DNA from: Devosia litorisediminis
GTDB taxonomy: Bacteria; Pseudomonadota; Alphaproteobacteria; Rhizobiales; Devosiaceae
Assembly: GCF_018334155.1 (NCBI RefSeq)
Contig: NZ_JAGXTP010000001.1
Coordinates: 1,426,001 to 1,490,000 of the forward strand
Reading direction: 5' to 3'
Length of the DNA: 64,000 nucleotides
The notes beneath the pieces are model-generated. The model saw nothing but the letters and a program-made list of their open reading frames with translations, did not search any database and was not told where the DNA came from. Made by a program: the position numbers and the translations under genes. How positions within the stretch are numbered: position 1 is the stretch's first letter; every line of letters starts with the position of its first letter. This document shows, one piece after another, positions 15,221 to 21,009 of the stretch.

Positions 15221-15238
15221 TTTGACCGTTTGGTCAAA
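15221..15238. promoter_or_regulatory. Putative operator 1 of the F420 island
   Basis: TTTGACCGTTTGGTCAAA has two perfect 7-bp arms around a 4-nt centre, 46 nt before the GTG start of the F420-dependent dehydrogenase. The same arms, with one changed base, recur at 19960-19977 before the other F420-type oxidoreductase. The symmetry and size fit a TetR- or MarR-type dimer. The regulator is not in this window. Confidence 0.65.
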
Positions 15239-15284
15239 ACTCGCTGCCACGACATGACCAGCCATGGCTGCCAAGGAGGACGAT

Positions 15285-16295
15285 GTGCGTTTCGGATACA
15301 AGGCTTCTGCTGAGCAATTCGCGCCCAACACGTTGCTGAAATTCGCCATCGAGGCCGAGCAAGCCGGGTTCGACTCGGTGTTTGTCAGCGATCACTTTCA
15401 GCCCTGGAAGCATACCGACGGCCATGCGCCGTTCGCACCCGCCTGGATGGCCGCGGTGCTGGCCAAGACCGAACGGATCATATTGGGCACGTCGGTGCTG
15501 ACACCGACATTCCGCCTGCATCCGTCGGTTGTGGCGCATGCCTTTGGTACGTTGGGTTCGATGTTTCCCGGCCGGGTCATTCTGGGCGTCGGTACCGGCG
15601 AGTCGCTCAACGAGGTGCCATCGACCGGCATGGTTTGGCCCGAACTCAAGGAACGGTCGGCCCGTATGCGCGAAGCTGTGGCCTTGATCCGACAGCTGTG
15701 GAGCGAGGACCGCGTGACGTTCGAGGGCGAATACTACAAGACGCAGAACGCCACGATCTATGACAAGCCCGACGAAATGGTGCCGATCTATCTGGCCGCT
15801 GGCGGGCCTTTGAACGCGAAATATGCTGGCCGCGCCGGCGACGGTTTCATCTGTACATCAGGCAAGGGCGAAGAGCTTTACGTCGACAAACTGCTGCCCA
15901 ATGTGGCGCTTGGCCGCGAAGAATCCGCGTTGGCTGACAAGCCTTTCGAGCGGATGATTGAAGTGAAAGTCTCGTTCGATACCGATCCTGAGGCGGCGCT
16001 GGAGAACACGCGTGGCTGGGCGGCGCTATCGCTGACGGCGGAGGAAAAACACTCGATCGAAGATCCTGCGGAAATGGAGCGCCTCGCGTCCGAACTGCCG
16101 ATTGAGCGTATTGCGAAGCGCTGGATCGTCTCGAGCGATCCGGATGAGCATGTGAGCGCCATCAAGACCTATATGGATTATGGCTTTGATCATCTGGTAT
16201 TCCATGCACCAGGTGATGATCAGAGCCGCTTCCTGGCGCTCTATGCCAAGGAAATTCTGCCGCGCTTGCGCGCATTGGCGCCAGCCGGGCAGTAG
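15285..16295 (+). CDS. fgd: F420-dependent glucose-6-phosphate dehydrogenase
   Basis: A 336-residue luciferase-like TIM-barrel enzyme oxidising glucose 6-phosphate to 6-phosphogluconolactone while reducing F420 to F420H2. It shares long identical runs with the mycobacterial enzyme ([41 protein letters not shown]). Catalytic H37, W41 and E106 align with His40, Trp44 and Glu109 of M. tuberculosis FGD. The phosphate-binding K194, K255 and R279 align with Lys198, Lys259 and Arg283. GTG 15285 is chosen: AAGGAGG lies five bases upstream and the protein then starts like its relatives. cofE follows after 28 nt. Confidence 0.93.
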
Positions 16296-16323
16296 CCCCC
16301 TGCCCTCGATACGGGACGATGCG

Positions 16324-17160
16324 ATGAGTTTGCCGCGATTTACGGTGTGGGGCGTTACTGGTGTCCCCGAAATTGGTGCCGGTGATGATCTGGTCAGCCA
16401 CATCCTGCAGGCCGTCGCCGCGCAGGAAGCGGACGATCCAGAAGCAGCACTGCGCGATGGCGATATTCTGGTGGTGACCAGCAAGATCGTTTCCAAGGCG
16501 GAAGGTCGGCAATTTCCTGCCGCGGATCGCGAGAAGGTCATTGCGCAGGATACGGTGCGCGTCGTGGCCGAGCGCGTGCATCCCGGTGGCGTGACGCAGA
16601 TCGTCGAGACCCGTCATGGCCTGATCATGGCTGCTGCAGGCGTGGATACGTCCAATGTGCCTGATGGAATTGCCCTGCGGCTGCCAGAGGATCCCGATGC
16701 TTCGGCACGGGCGATGTGTGCTGGCCTACGGGAGCGCCTGGGGATCACGCTTGGCCTCATCATCACCGACACCATGGGGCGGCCTTGGCGCGTCGGTCAG
16801 ACCGATGTGGCTATTGGCGCTGCTGGCGTGATGGTTACAGATGACATGCGCGGCGGCGTCGATGCCAATGGGCGTCCGTTGCAGGTGACCATTACAGTGT
16901 TGGCTGATGAACTGGCCGGCGCCACCGATCTGGTCAAGGGCAAGGCCACAGGCATTCCCATTGCCGTGGTGCGCGGTTTGGGTCGTCTGGTCACCGATGT
17001 CGATGCGCCTGGCGCCCGTACGCTGGTGCGTTCGGTCGATGATGACATGTTCCGCTTTGGCTCTGCCGAGGCTTATCGCCTGGGTTATGAAGCCGCGCTG
17101 GCCGAGCTGCGCGATGGCGGCCAGACCACCTCAAAACGCGTCAAACAACGGCAGGATTAA
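16324..17160 (+). CDS. cofE: Coenzyme F420-0:L-glutamate ligase
   Basis: A GTP-dependent ligase adding glutamates to F420-0, the last step of F420 synthesis. The 278-residue length matches the single-domain CofE form rather than the two-domain FbiB. Family segments are [18 protein letters not shown] near 45, the [19 protein letters not shown] block in the middle, and [10 protein letters not shown] near the C-terminus. The start is ATG 16324; in-frame codons upstream lie inside fgd. It is the second gene of the apparent fgd-cofE-ABC operon. No cofC, cofD, cofG or cofH homologue is in the window. Confidence 0.92.
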
Positions 17161-17164
17161 AGCC

Positions 17165-18109
17165 ATGCGTGCCTCTTTTCTCGCGGCATTTGCCGCCGTG
17201 TCGCTGTCTGCCGCGCCAGTGCTGGCCCAGACCAGCTATCCCTTGAGCATCGAGAACTGCGGCGTGTCCGTCGTGTTCGACGCAGCGCCCAAGCGCGTGG
17301 TGACGATCAAGTCGACAGCCACCGAAATGTTGCTGGCCCTTGGTCTGGGTAACAGGATTGTCGGCGTGGGTTTTCAGGATGGTCCGGTGCCACAGGCCTG
17401 GGCGGTCGGCGCTGGGGCGCTGCCGGTGCTGGCTGAAAAGCTGCCATCGCAGGAAGTGGTGCTCGAAGTGGAGCCCGACCTCATCTATGGCGGCTGGGAA
17501 AGCAATTTTGCGGCGGACGGCGCTGGCGAACGGGCCAGCCTGGCCAGCCTGGGTGTCGCCAGTTATGTCTCGCCGGCTGCCTGTCGCTCGATCAAGCCGG
17601 CCAAGCTGAGCTTTGACGGCCTGTTTGCCGATATCGCCGAGATGGGCGCGATATTTGATGCATCTTCGGCAGCAGACGCGCTGATTGCCGAACAGCAGGA
17701 AGCACTCGCCGCCATCCCCGCCGACGATCGTGGGCTGAGCGTGCTGTGGTATTCGTCAGGCACCAAGGCGCCCTATGTCGGAGCGGGCAGCAATGCGCCG
17801 GCCATGATGATGGCAGCGCTGGGACTGAACAATATCATGGGTGATGTCGACGAAGGCTGGGTTTCGGCCAGCTGGGAAGCCATTGTCGATGCCAATCCCG
17901 ACGTGATCATCCTGGTTGATGCGGCGTGGAATTCGGTGGACCAAAAGAAGCAATTGCTCGCCGAGAATCCGATTACCAGTCAGCTCGATGCGGTCATTCA
18001 CGAGCGGTACCTTGTGGTGCCGTTCCCGGCCTCCGAGGCCGGGGTGCGCAATGTCGGGGCGACAGCCGATATGGCGGCGCAACTGGCGGCGTTGTCCTTC
18101 TTAAAATGA
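17165..18109 (+). CDS. Periplasmic binding protein of the putative F420-0 ABC transporter
   Basis: A 314-residue class III (BtuF/FhuD-like) binding protein. The first 21 residues form a Sec signal peptide with a likely cut after VLA (MRASFLAAFAAVSLSAAPVLA). There is no lipobox cysteine, so it should be free in the periplasm. The domain opening APKRVVTIKSTATEMLLALGLG and the EVEPDLIYGGWES and NPDVIILVDAAW segments are typical. Position directly after cofE (4-nt gap) and before matching permease and ATPase genes points to F420-0 or a related deazaflavin as ligand. A vitamin B12 or siderophore ligand cannot be excluded by sequence. Confidence 0.8.
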   Translation: MRASFLAAFAAVSLSAAPVLAQTSYPLSIENCGVSVVFDAAPKRVVTIKSTATEMLLALGLGNRIVGVGFQDGPVPQAWAVGAGALPVLAEKLPSQEVVLEVEPDLIYGGWESNFAADGAGERASLASLGVASYVSPAACRSIKPAKLSFDGLFADIAEMGAIFDASSAADALIAEQQEALAAIPADDRGLSVLWYSSGTKAPYVGAGSNAPAMMMAALGLNNIMGDVDEGWVSASWEAIVDANPDVIILVDAAWNSVDQKKQLLAENPITSQLDAVIHERYLVVPFPASEAGVRNVGATADMAAQLAALSFLK

Positions 18110-19125
18110 GTTTGACCCGCGGCCCTCGGATAGCGCTTGGCGCCGGGCTGTGGGCGCTATTGCTGGCGAGCGTGGTGTTGGCGGTGACCTTTGGGCCCGC
18201 CGATATAGCGCCGCAGGAGGTCTGGCAGACCATTGGCAACCATTTCGGCTTGCCGATGGACAGTCCGGTGACGCGGCTGCGCGATGCGATCATCTGGGAA
18301 TTGCGGCTGCCACGCGTACTGGTTGCCGCCGGGATTGGCGCGGGGCTGGCGCTATGTGGCGCCATCATGCAGGCGCTGACCCGCAATCCGCTGGCGGATC
18401 CCTATCTGCTGGGCCTTTCGTCCGGTGCCTCGTTCGGGGCCGTGGTGTTTTTGCTAGCCGGGGCGGCCTTGCTGATGCCGATCGGGGCGTTTCTGGGTGC
18501 CGGGGCCGCCATGGCGCTGACGTTACTGATCACAAGGCTTCTGGGTGGCGCCACGCCGTCGCGGGCCATTCTGGCGGGCATTGCCATTTCAGCGCTGGCG
18601 GCAGCAGGAACATCCTTTTTGATCTTCTGGTCGGCGACGGGTGATTCCTATCGTGAAATCCTGAGCTGGTTGATGGGCTCGCTCAGTGGCACTGGTTGGG
18701 GTGATGCGGGCATTGTCCTGAGCGCCGTCGTGCTGCTCGGTGTGCCGATGCTGATGAGTGGCCGCTCGCTTGATGCCTTTGCCTTTGGTGACGCGGCGGC
18801 GGCGACGCTGGGGATCGATGTGGCCCAGTTGCGCTGGGTGCTGCTGGGTGCCACGGCGCTGCTGACCGGTGCGCTCGTTGCCATTGGCGGCGCGATCGGT
18901 TTTGTGGGCCTGATCATTCCTCATGTGGTGCGCCTGGGGACCGGTTCGCGCCATCGGGTGCTGTTGCCGGTGACCATGCTGGTGGGTGCCATCTTCATGG
19001 TGTGGACCGATACCGCAGCGCGCAGCCTGTTCTCGCCGCGTGAATTGCCGGTGGGGATCATCACCGCTCTACTGGGCGCGCCGATCTTTCTGCTCGTACT
19101 GTTGCGCTATCGGCGGGTGACATGA
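18106..19125 (+). CDS. FecCD/BtuC-type permease of the putative F420-0 ABC transporter
   Basis: A 339-residue inner-membrane permease of the FecCD family with about ten hydrophobic segments. Family motifs are LPRVLVAAGIGAGLALCGAIMQ near 65-85, NPLADPYLLGLSSGASFGA, and GFVGLIIPHVVRLGTG toward the end, the last being the coupling region that meets the ATPase. The start is ATG 18106, overlapping the binding-protein stop by ATGA. Its stop overlaps the ATPase start the same way. Substrate is inferred from cofE and fgd in the same operon. Confidence 0.85.
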   Translation: MSLTRGPRIALGAGLWALLLASVVLAVTFGPADIAPQEVWQTIGNHFGLPMDSPVTRLRDAIIWELRLPRVLVAAGIGAGLALCGAIMQALTRNPLADPYLLGLSSGASFGAVVFLLAGAALLMPIGAFLGAGAAMALTLLITRLLGGATPSRAILAGIAISALAAAGTSFLIFWSATGDSYREILSWLMGSLSGTGWGDAGIVLSAVVLLGVPMLMSGRSLDAFAFGDAAAATLGIDVAQLRWVLLGATALLTGALVAIGGAIGFVGLIIPHVVRLGTGSRHRVLLPVTMLVGAIFMVWTDTAARSLFSPRELPVGIITALLGAPIFLLVLLRYRRVT

Positions 19126-19910
19126 GCGCGGGGCTGGCGTTCAGCGAAGTGGTGGTGCGCGCCGGGCAAAGCACGCTGCTTGATGGCGTCAGCTGTGCAG
19201 CGCGCGCAGGCCGATTGACCGGTCTGATTGGTCCCAATGGCGCCGGGAAATCGACATTAATGCGGGCGGCTCTGGGGCTCGTTGCCATGGATAGCGGTTC
19301 AATTCGCTTTGGTGACGCTGATCTGCCTGCCATGGCGCGGCGGGATCGGGCGCAAATGAGCGCGTTCGTCGAACAGAGCGGCGCGAGCGAGGTGCATCTG
19401 AGTGCCCGCGAAGTGGTGATGCTGGGCCGTATTCCGTTTCAATCGCTCTGGCAATCAACGGCGGGCCCGCAGGATGATGCCGCAGCCGATGCGGCGCTGG
19501 CTGCCGTGGGCATGACCGGCTTTGCCGAGCGGCAATACCAGACGCTTTCGGGTGGCGAACAACAGCGTCTGCAGGTGGCGCGAGCCTTGGCCCAGCAGCC
19601 GCAATTGCTGATTCTGGATGAGCCCACCAATCACCTTGATGTGCATGCGCAATTGAGCATTCTCAACCTGCTGCGGCAGCGGGCGCAGGCCGGCGCGACG
19701 GTTTTGCTGGCGTTGCATGATCTCAATCTGGCGGCAGCGTTCTGTGACGAGCTGGTGGTCCTCCATCACGGCCGGCAAGTGGCTCAGGGTTCACCCCAGG
19801 CGGTGTTGACCCCTGCCCTGCTGGCCGATGTCTATGCCGTCAAGGCGAGCGTTCTGGCGCATCCGCATTCAGGACGGCCGATGATTGCCTATGATCTGCC
19901 ATCTGATTGA
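19122..19910 (+). CDS. ATP-binding protein of the putative F420-0 ABC transporter
   Basis: A 262-residue FepC/BtuD-type ATPase. Walker A is GPNGAGKST, the Q-loop lies in FVEQSG, the signature reads LSGGEQQR, Walker B is LLILDEPTNHLD, and the H-loop is LALHDL. It is the last gene of the five-gene run fgd-cofE-binding protein-permease-ATPase, joined to the permease by an ATGA overlap. A 97-nt gap with its own promoter and operator separates it from the next oxidoreductase. Confidence 0.88.
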   Translation: MSAGLAFSEVVVRAGQSTLLDGVSCAARAGRLTGLIGPNGAGKSTLMRAALGLVAMDSGSIRFGDADLPAMARRDRAQMSAFVEQSGASEVHLSAREVVMLGRIPFQSLWQSTAGPQDDAAADAALAAVGMTGFAERQYQTLSGGEQQRLQVARALAQQPQLLILDEPTNHLDVHAQLSILNLLRQRAQAGATVLLALHDLNLAAAFCDELVVLHHGRQVAQGSPQAVLTPALLADVYAVKASVLAHPHSGRPMIAYDLPSD

Positions 19911-19959: not shown

Positions 19960-19977
19960 TTTGATCAGCTGGTCAAA
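19960..19977. promoter_or_regulatory. Putative operator 2 of the F420 island
   Basis: TTTGATCAGCTGGTCAAA is an 18-nt inverted repeat matching operator 1 (15221-15238) in all arm positions but one (T for C). It begins directly after the -10 of the promoter for the gene at 20008. An additional GACC-AAA half-site lies just upstream at 19951-19957. Confidence 0.65.
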
Positions 19978-20007: not shown

Positions 20008-21009
20008 ATGGAATTCGGAATCACCTTCAAGGGTTTCATTGAACCCGAACGGGCGCGTTACCTGGTGCGCGCTGCTGAATATGCTGGCTTCACCTATTGC
20101 TGGTTCTACGATTCACACATTCTGTGGCGCGACTGTTACGCCGCCATTGCCATGTGCATGGAACACACAACCGATATGCGGTTTGGTCCGCTGGTGACCA
20201 ATCCCGATGTGCGCGACTGGTCGGTGGCCGCGTCGCTGTTCGGTTCGCTGTCCAAGCAGAGTGGCGGACGCTTTGATCTGGCTGTTGGTCGCGGCGACAG
20301 TTCGCGCCGGGTGATGGGCAAAAAGCCAGCCAAGCTGGCCCGTGTTGCGGAATTCATCGAAAAGACCCGCGCCATGGTTCGCGGCGAGGCTGTCACCTAT
20401 GATGACATCCCCGAGCCCGTCCAGTTCCCGTGGGCCGTTGGCCACGACATGCCGAGCTGGATTGCCGCCTATGGTCCGCTGGCGCTGAAAACCGCCGGTG
20501 AACATGCCGATGGCGTGGTGCTGCAGCTGGCAGATCCCGGGCTATGCAAATGGTTCACGGACCAGTGTCTGGATGCGGGCAAGGCCGCAGGCAAGGATAT
20601 GAGCAATTACCGCTCTATGGCTGCTGCCCCCGCCTATTTCGGCGACAAGGCCCGCGCTATCGAGGCCACGAAGTGGTTCCCCGCCATGGTGGGCAATCAC
20701 GTGGCTGATATTGTCGAAAAATATGGCGCCGACAGCGATCAGGTGCCAGCCAGCCTGACCAGCTATATCGAAAAGCGTCGCGGCTACGACTATTCCAAGC
20801 ATGGTCAGGCCGATAACCCGTTCCTGGATTTCATCACGCCCGACGTGGTGGAGAACTTCTGTGTGCTTGGCGAGCCCGAGGAGCACATTGCCAAGATGCA
20901 TGCGCTCAAGGCTGCGGGCATCACGCAATTCAACATCTATCTCGATAGTGGCGATGAGGAAGAGATCATTGCCGGCTATGGCCGACACGTGATCCCGGCG
21001 TTTCGCTAA
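20008..21009 (+). CDS. LLM-class F420-dependent oxidoreductase
   Basis: A 333-residue luciferase-like monooxygenase-fold protein resembling the family annotated TIGR03842/CPS_4043-type F420-dependent oxidoreductases. Family features are the N-terminal strand MEFGITFKGF, the YDSHILWRD segment at the cofactor pocket, and the LAVGRGDSSRRVMGKKP loop. A strong ribosome site (GGAGGG) lies 7 nt before the ATG. The substrate is unknown. Placement beside an F420H2-generating dehydrogenase, with a shared operator, suggests it consumes F420H2. Cofactor choice between F420 and FMN cannot be proven from sequence. Confidence 0.82.
   Translation: MEFGITFKGFIEPERARYLVRAAEYAGFTYCWFYDSHILWRDCYAAIAMCMEHTTDMRFGPLVTNPDVRDWSVAASLFGSLSKQSGGRFDLAVGRGDSSRRVMGKKPAKLARVAEFIEKTRAMVRGEAVTYDDIPEPVQFPWAVGHDMPSWIAAYGPLALKTAGEHADGVVLQLADPGLCKWFTDQCLDAGKAAGKDMSNYRSMAAAPAYFGDKARAIEATKWFPAMVGNHVADIVEKYGADSDQVPASLTSYIEKRRGYDYSKHGQADNPFLDFITPDVVENFCVLGEPEEHIAKMHALKAAGITQFNIYLDSGDEEEIIAGYGRHVIPAFR

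Follow-up and report, generated by a model that had tools for sequence, protein, structure and literature searches.

A likely F420 salvage regulon in Devosia, with a possible link to pyrimidines and RutR-type control

F420 is usually discussed as a cofactor made by its users, and a locus of the alphaproteobacterium Devosia litorisediminis raises the question of whether a bacterium may import it, finish it and use it while lacking the genes for its synthesis. The locus lies in a 64-kb stretch of DNA (64,000 nucleotides; the window) from a 3.74-Mb genome (3,743,297 bases, completeness 100), where positions 15285-19910 hold five closely packed open frames, all on the forward strand: fgd, for an F420-dependent glucose-6-phosphate dehydrogenase (FGD; 15285-16295); cofE, for F420-0:gamma-glutamyl ligase (16324-17160); and the putative periplasmic binding protein (17165-18109), FecCD-type permease (18106-19125) and ATPase (19122-19910) of a proposed deazaflavin importer. 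The GTG start of fgd is preceded by AAGGAGG at 15273-15279, gaps of 28 and 4 nucleotides separate fgd from cofE and cofE from the binding-protein gene, and the remaining two junctions (binding protein/permease and permease/ATPase) are 4-nucleotide overlaps. The original prediction for this DNA had placed a cassette of fgd, cofE and importer here, which both the frames and the family scores bear out. The set comprises six genes, one more than that prediction gave, with the addition of LLM2 (20008-21009, forward strand), a TIGR03842 luciferase-like oxidoreductase and proposed F420H2-dependent pyrimidine reductase; this sixth gene, a palindrome common to both transcription units and a link to pyrimidines are all additions to the earlier picture. 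Taken together, the observations make it likely that the locus is a compact F420 salvage regulon, linked to pyrimidines and under RutR-type control.

The identities of the cassette proteins follow from scores against NCBIfam models and their cut-offs, the permease being scanned from 18100, two codons early. FGD scores 503.5 bits for TIGR03554 (cut-off 420) as opposed to 247.2 bits for TIGR03885, a family that uses flavin mononucleotide (FMN; cut-off 398.7), and its best solved matches are two FGD enzymes, 5lxe and 3b4y, which we take to be those of Rhodococcus and Mycobacterium tuberculosis. The catalytic and phosphate-binding residues of M. tuberculosis FGD1 are presumably E13, H40, W44, E109, T195, K198, K259 and R283; on alignment all eight are kept in the window FGD, which upholds the earlier claim that these residues are all present. 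CofE exceeds the cut-off of its family (TIGR01916, 223.6 bits against 180.65) and matches solved CofE relatives.

For the importer, the relevant models are TIGR03868, TIGR03869 and TIGR03873, whose rationale as a putative F420-0 transporter was reportedly built on Actinobacteria. The binding protein (418.1 bits, cut-off 392.4) and the permease (442.4 bits, cut-off 437.35) exceed their thresholds, whereas the ATPase stays under its own (329.3 bits, cut-off 372.4) although TIGR03873 ranks top of 191 families; the suggestion that the transporter belongs to these three models therefore stands in full for two subunits and as a best match for the third, a shortfall that speaks against the assignment. 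The earlier expectation that the binding protein is of neither BtuF nor siderophore type agrees with its scores for BtuF (20.4 bits, cut-off 234) and for the siderophore model EitA (121.1 bits, cut-off 640) and with its fold; the tree used below held no BtuF or proven siderophore protein. Its predicted structure has a mean predicted local distance difference test (pLDDT) score of 89.3, and the nearest solved chain is 4mlz of Jonesia denitrificans (48% identity; template modelling, TM, scores 0.89/0.93), whose entry title gives neither ligand nor function. A riboswitch search returned no match, and cobalamin or siderophore import was dropped in view of this result and of the family scores. The cassette itself is without an outer-membrane receptor gene; F420-0, at about 516 Da, could pass porins. 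Since automatic annotation in Devosia already reads 'putative F420-0 ABC transporter substrate-binding protein', the annotation of an F420-0 transporter in this genus is not in itself new.

Whether the imported compound would have to arrive ready-made depends on what else the genome encodes. Profile searches across 61 genomes of the genus Devosia, this one included, found no match to CofD at E 0.001, none to CofH (a search that covers fused FbiC as well) and 20 weak matches to CofC, none of which exceeds the cut-off. Sixteen of these 20 sit in frames of 455-485 amino acids, which would be the size of GlmU, and the single match in the D. litorisediminis genome (26.4 bits, cut-off 105) lies in a frame of 464 amino acids. 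As controls, of 148 genomes sampled evenly from the actinobacterial class, 90 have a CofH above its cut-off, mostly in frames of more than 750 amino acids as expected for FbiC, and alphaproteobacterial proteins exceed the cut-offs for CofG, CofH and CofC, with CofD scoring once over (286.9 bits) and once just under (255.8) its cut-off of 257.45. The absence of CofC, CofD and CofH, originally noticed at the locus, holds throughout these Devosia genomes, with nothing over cut-off for any of the three. CofE, by contrast, gave 51 matches and exceeds its cut-off in 50 of the 61; each of these 50 also has a TIGR03868 match that reaches 329 bits (47 surpass the cut-off), as opposed to none of the other 11. 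On these grounds salvage of an F420 compound is very probable. The earlier proposal of salvage thus survives as the best reading of the CofD, CofH and CofC searches, with F420-0 somewhat preferred to a tailed F420 as the candidate substrate.

The set is regularly accompanied by LLM2, which scores 478.6 bits for TIGR03842 (cut-off 295.45) and has nine solved matches, the best six being methylenetetrahydromethanopterin reductases, an F420 enzyme. A search of this genome with the Mer model at E 0.001 retrieves three genes—FGD, LLM2 and a TIGR03858 monooxygenase—and a candidate RutA (L003) was rejected, as it fits TIGR03858. Because LLM2 stands beside the cassette in all 41 Devosiaceae loci with enough sequence, it belongs to the F420 set. 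Among plasmids, 11 records show 69-70% identity to LLM2, and in the three inspected the gene ends a cofG-H-D-C-E-npdG operon. Separately, a Caballeronia plasmid (L165:6001-9991) carries an LLM2-like piece, 80% alike to Devosia over 128 amino acids, near a Zn-dependent hydrolase and a transhydrogenase piece.

The cassette is no chance arrangement: 45 named Devosiaceae loci contain it, in one of two orders or in a Pelagibacterium form. Within the family Devosiaceae, 66 of 136 genomes have TIGR03868 over its cut-off, and within a sample of the class this genome alone among 385 matches the binding protein at E 1e-80. Among named genomes, 131 relatives were confirmed by a scan; the best 80 of the 131 belong to Devosia, Pelagibacterium, Actinobacteria (Cellulomonas, Cryobacterium, Jiangella, Arthrobacter, Glaciihabitans and others) and some metagenome-assembled genomes that carry other Hyphomicrobiales names. 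Of the loci taken as Devosiaceae (L044-L086, L089 and L109), four end at contig ends and 41 reach far enough for gene order to be read: 27 have fgd-cofE-binding protein-permease-ATPase-LLM2, nine have LLM2 first, three of Pelagibacterium type carry another luciferase-type enzyme at the fgd position (TIGR03557 in L084), one has an unmatched first gene (L083), and in one the permease and ATPase are each matched in two pieces (L086). Named strains with the set include Devosia riboflavina IFO13584, D. subaequoris DSM 23447 and D. elaeis S37 (L076, L062 and L075).

Second copies and related importers also occur in the family. One Devosiaceae genome (G492, L139:3556-9925) has a second copy with importer, another CofE (246.7 bits), NpdG (195.5 bits, cut-off 149.8) and a different luciferase-type enzyme, and in G479 the second copy (L137) likewise comes with a separate CofE (267.1 bits). 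A separate TIGR03868-like class of Devosiaceae importers (L124-L136, about 230-270 bits) was rejected as further F420 importers, there being no cofE in any of the 13 fetched stretches. In two Devosia another importer of the same superfamily, with a binding protein 34% alike, lies directly upstream of the cassette (L050:2094-4886 and L056:2141-4933). In a 2.0-Mb Devosia genome (G069), only a cofE remnant with a stop (L140:9355-9666) was seen, between mazG/hflX pieces and PhnP-like, tatD and metG genes.

What ties LLM2 to the rest of the set beyond adjacency is a palindrome, TTGACC-N4-GGTCAA, found in one form before both transcription units. The copy upstream of fgd, TTGACCGTTTGGTCAA (15222-15237, no strand assigned), has no mismatch and ends 48 nucleotides 5' of the start codon; the second, TTGATCAGCTGGTCAA (19961-19976, likewise without strand), has one mismatch and ends 32 nucleotides 5' of LLM2. 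These are the best two of six window matches with up to two mismatches, against 1.91 expected, and none of 100 shuffles reaches six. With at most one mismatch and within 180 nucleotides upstream, the palindrome precedes 41 of 41 LLM2 genes and 35 of 44 genes at the fgd position in Devosiaceae; the nine without it are exactly the nine loci where LLM2 leads the unit. Across these loci the half-sites are nearly invariant and the four middle bases variable, as for a bound site. In Escherichia coli, RutR sits on a palindrome of roughly 16 bp upstream of rutA and of carA until uracil releases it (PMC10891134). In the K-12 sequence itself, TTGACCATTTGGTCCA lies upstream of carA, one mismatch from the Devosia palindrome, and TGGACTAAACGGTCAA between rutA and rutR; TTGACCATTTGGTCAA, which precedes fgd in six Devosia loci, is one base off the carA palindrome. 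By this resemblance the palindromes before both units would be RutR-type and are putative operators.

A connection to pyrimidines is also suggested by the neighbours of LLM2 relatives. In two Leisingera the relative is the last gene of a cofG-H-D-C-E-npdG operon, with a RutR-like gene after it (TIGR03613 198.3 bits, under the cut-off of 368; 42% to E. coli RutR), and in both the row pntA-pntB-aminotransferase-Zn hydrolase-hydA-NCS1 symporter stands facing the operon; the annotated stretch includes no gene labelled uracil reductase. In Actinobacteria, 17 of 35 loci have a TIGR03842-type gene together with dihydropyrimidinase (hydA) and amidase genes upstream of the importer; in L107, the only one of these loci run against models, the dihydropyrimidinase scores 547.1 bits (cut-off 393.25). 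One Streptomyces has similar TIGR03842-type, dihydropyrimidinase and amidase genes together. In 10 of 45 Devosiaceae loci a nucleoside hydrolase (78-100% alike; 265.4 bits for PF01156 in L061) lies divergently upstream of fgd with the palindrome in between, and in two loci a gene fusing a luciferase and a flavin adenine dinucleotide (FAD)-binding domain stands between nucleoside hydrolase and fgd, with the box on both sides (L061:3471-5750, L077:3807-6083). A one-mismatch site also lies 144 nucleotides 5' of the cpdB start in this genome (L194:16565). The hits of a Sinorhizobium meliloti nodulation study include fbi genes, an F420 oxidoreductase, PntAB and PyrC (PMC8407117); no likeness of clusters is claimed. 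On balance, use of F420 for pyrimidines appears slightly favoured.

Several observations weigh against this explanation. Because 11 of the 61 Devosia have no CofE over cut-off, the set is dispensable in the genus. In the 1,249,706 of 3,743,297 bases read from this genome (33%), relatives of hydA, rutR, the NCS1 symporter and the Zn hydrolase were not found, and the only TetR match there (L227) was rejected as RutR (50.8 bits, cut-off 368). With at most one mismatch, 17 sites (the cpdB site among them) occur in the same third, 15 of them outside the cassette and several within reading frames, so the palindrome is not specific to the cassette; one perfect site stands 95 nucleotides 5' of a DppA-like gene (L212:12864). 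The Paracoccus and Leisingera stretches L160 and L161 hold one two-mismatch site each, within genes, and the window itself is without the nucleoside hydrolase. In Paracoccus alcaliphilus the annotated stretch around the F420-LLM2 operon shows no hydA, no transaminase and no RutR-like gene, the actinobacterial LLM2 relatives linked to hydA are only 38-44% alike to that of Devosia and form a separate clade in the tree, and the actinobacterial amidase (L107) remains under its model's cut-off. These points leave room for the alternative that salvage is real while neither LLM2 nor the palindrome is related to pyrimidines, the repressor being another TetR-type protein and LLM2 a general F420H2 reductase, for example in detoxification. 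This is unlikely, if not negligible, given that six Devosia fgd boxes lie one base from the carA palindrome, that the nucleoside hydrolase has the same box in 10 loci, and that close LLM2 relatives in two Leisingera sit in pyrimidine clusters with a RutR-like gene.

A different question is what the importer carries. CofD lies within 25 of 35 actinobacterial importer loci, often directly 3' of the ATPase, and CofC within 21 of 35 (CofC twice and CofD once were checked by model, all over cut-off). CofD exceeds its cut-off in 34 of 34 actinobacterial carrier genomes searched (L110 left out) and is found in none of four Pelagibacterium-type genomes; CofH is over cut-off in none of these 38, with weak partial matches in three actinobacteria. 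These actinobacteria could convert the deazaflavin FO to F420 and not make FO, and because CofD is present and CofH not over cut-off their importer probably takes up FO. Devosiaceae would need at least F420-0 from outside, since they lack CofD. The binding proteins of Devosia and all actinobacterial loci are 51-60% identical, and only five positions (V98, R141, D165, S257 and P288) differ consistently between the Devosiaceae and actinobacterial groups; on the simplest view the importer may grip the common deazaflavin-ribityl head. The gene content of the actinobacterial carriers, which counts against import of F420-0, and the small number of separating positions also suit the idea that the importer takes FO in Devosia too and that F420-0 is made from it by unrecognised enzymes before CofE acts. 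With no CofD at E 0.001 in 61 Devosia, by a model that scores alphaproteobacterial CofD at 255.8 and 286.9 bits, this appears improbable. Import of cobalamin, a siderophore or a flavin, with luciferase-like enzymes reverted to FMN, would draw on a fold and permease family common to B12, heme and siderophore importers and on the existence of the FMN-reverted sister family TIGR03885, for which four TIGR03557-type enzymes (three by or near actinobacterial importers, one of Pelagibacterium) score higher, though under cut-off, a further point to its credit. It is nevertheless very improbable in view of the FGD scores, the distance of the binding protein from BtuF and EitA, the CofE, CofD, CofC and npdG genes near members of the importer family, and the riboswitch search.

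The phylogenies indicate that the set looks mosaic in origin. The binding-protein tree, built from the window and 70 of 98 extracted proteins after thinning Devosia and dropping rows with stops or longer than 400 amino acids, unites Devosiaceae binding proteins and the second copy L137 in one clade (95/85) beside those of Actinobacteria, while two paralog classes that score under the cut-off stand apart; the two outgroup rows labelled EitA carry a loose label, the one checked scoring 197.9 bits for TIGR03868 and 88.9 for EitA. CofE groups with its actinobacterial counterparts rather than with the Leisingera or Paracoccus proteins, whereas LLM2 groups with Leisingera and Paracoccus, and plasmid relatives of FGD at E 1e-60 are actinobacterial in 17 of 17 records. 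The transfer from Actinobacteria proposed earlier is suggested by the trees of CofE and TIGR03557-type enzymes, in which Devosiaceae fall inside Actinobacteria and none of 200 bootstraps gives a single actinobacterial clade; however, such a clade survives approximately unbiased (AU) tests (p 0.134 and 0.0896), so that the case for transfer, its direction included, stops short of significance. A plasmid origin of the importer was rejected, all 1283 plasmid matches being under 60% and the 40 listed 32-35% alike.

Compared with known systems, the Devosia locus shares with the TIGR03868/69/73 cassette, a set of hypothetical equivalogs, three best-matching subunits, adjacent cofE and fgd and no CofD or CofH; it differs in its Gram-negative host, LLM2, the common palindrome and the ATPase score, and the actinobacterial carriers searched have CofD. 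The actinobacterial binding protein-permease-ATPase clusters of Cellulomonas, Cryobacterium, Arthrobacter and Naasia have a homologous importer and CofE and keep CofC and CofD, without CofH over cut-off, whereas Devosia keeps CofE only. The alphaproteobacterial cofG-cofH-cofD-cofC-cofE-npdG-TIGR03842 operon of two Leisingera and Paracoccus alcaliphilus has a 69-70% identical LLM2 at its end, but makes its own F420 and has npdG where Devosia has fgd; L. caerulea does have a FecCD-type importer further downstream, with a likeness to that of Devosia of only 34-37%. The genes around TIGR03842 in Leisingera (hydA, Zn hydrolase, transaminase, NCS1 symporter and RutR-like gene) resemble the PydABC system of reductive pyrimidine breakdown and its RutR/PydR regulator, PydR being called RutR-like in the reference list of PMC7332683; where the Leisingera stretches have no annotated uracil reductase, LLM2 with F420H2 is proposed to replace it. 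In the main text of a 2021 review of F420, 'salvage' and 'uptake' have zero occurrences; a table there puts a question mark on FGD for Alphaproteobacteria, and those alphaproteobacteria predicted to produce F420 are said to encode Fgd besides Fno (PMC8498797). Literature searches that covered few subscription papers listed none on F420 salvage in Devosia or with F420 and dihydropyrimidinase as topic; one listed paper, on gut microbiota in cancer, mentions F420, dihydropyrimidinase and uracil together.

How the parts may work together can be outlined from gene content. The sequences themselves show what the genes are, that they stay linked and share a palindrome, and that CofD, CofH and any CofC over cut-off are missing; the imported compound, the enzyme activities, the regulator and the pyrimidine substrate are inferred. 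The importer would bring in a ready-made F420 compound with its phospholactyl group, most likely F420-0, to which CofE would add the glutamate tail, thereby also trapping it. FGD would recharge the cofactor using glucose-6-phosphate, and LLM2 would spend F420H2, most likely to reduce uracil or thymine for breakdown. A uracil-sensing TetR protein of RutR type most likely represses both units at TTGACC-N4-GGTCAA, with uracil releasing transcription. Tentatively, the observations may be joined in a broader proposal: TIGR03842 proteins would be F420H2-dependent uracil/thymine reductases replacing dihydropyrimidine dehydrogenase, Devosia would scavenge F420 for this purpose under a uracil-sensing repressor, and the transporter family would be a deazaflavin importer, serving FO in Actinobacteria with CofC and CofD and F420-0 in Devosiaceae with CofE only.

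If true, the genus would offer a clear example of F420 acting as a shared vitamin, in that most of its species can import, tail, recharge and use the cofactor but not make it. The same reading would assign the cofactor a definable task in these bacteria and provide a testable substrate for an unassigned oxidoreductase family, and the named strains that carry the set make such testing practicable.

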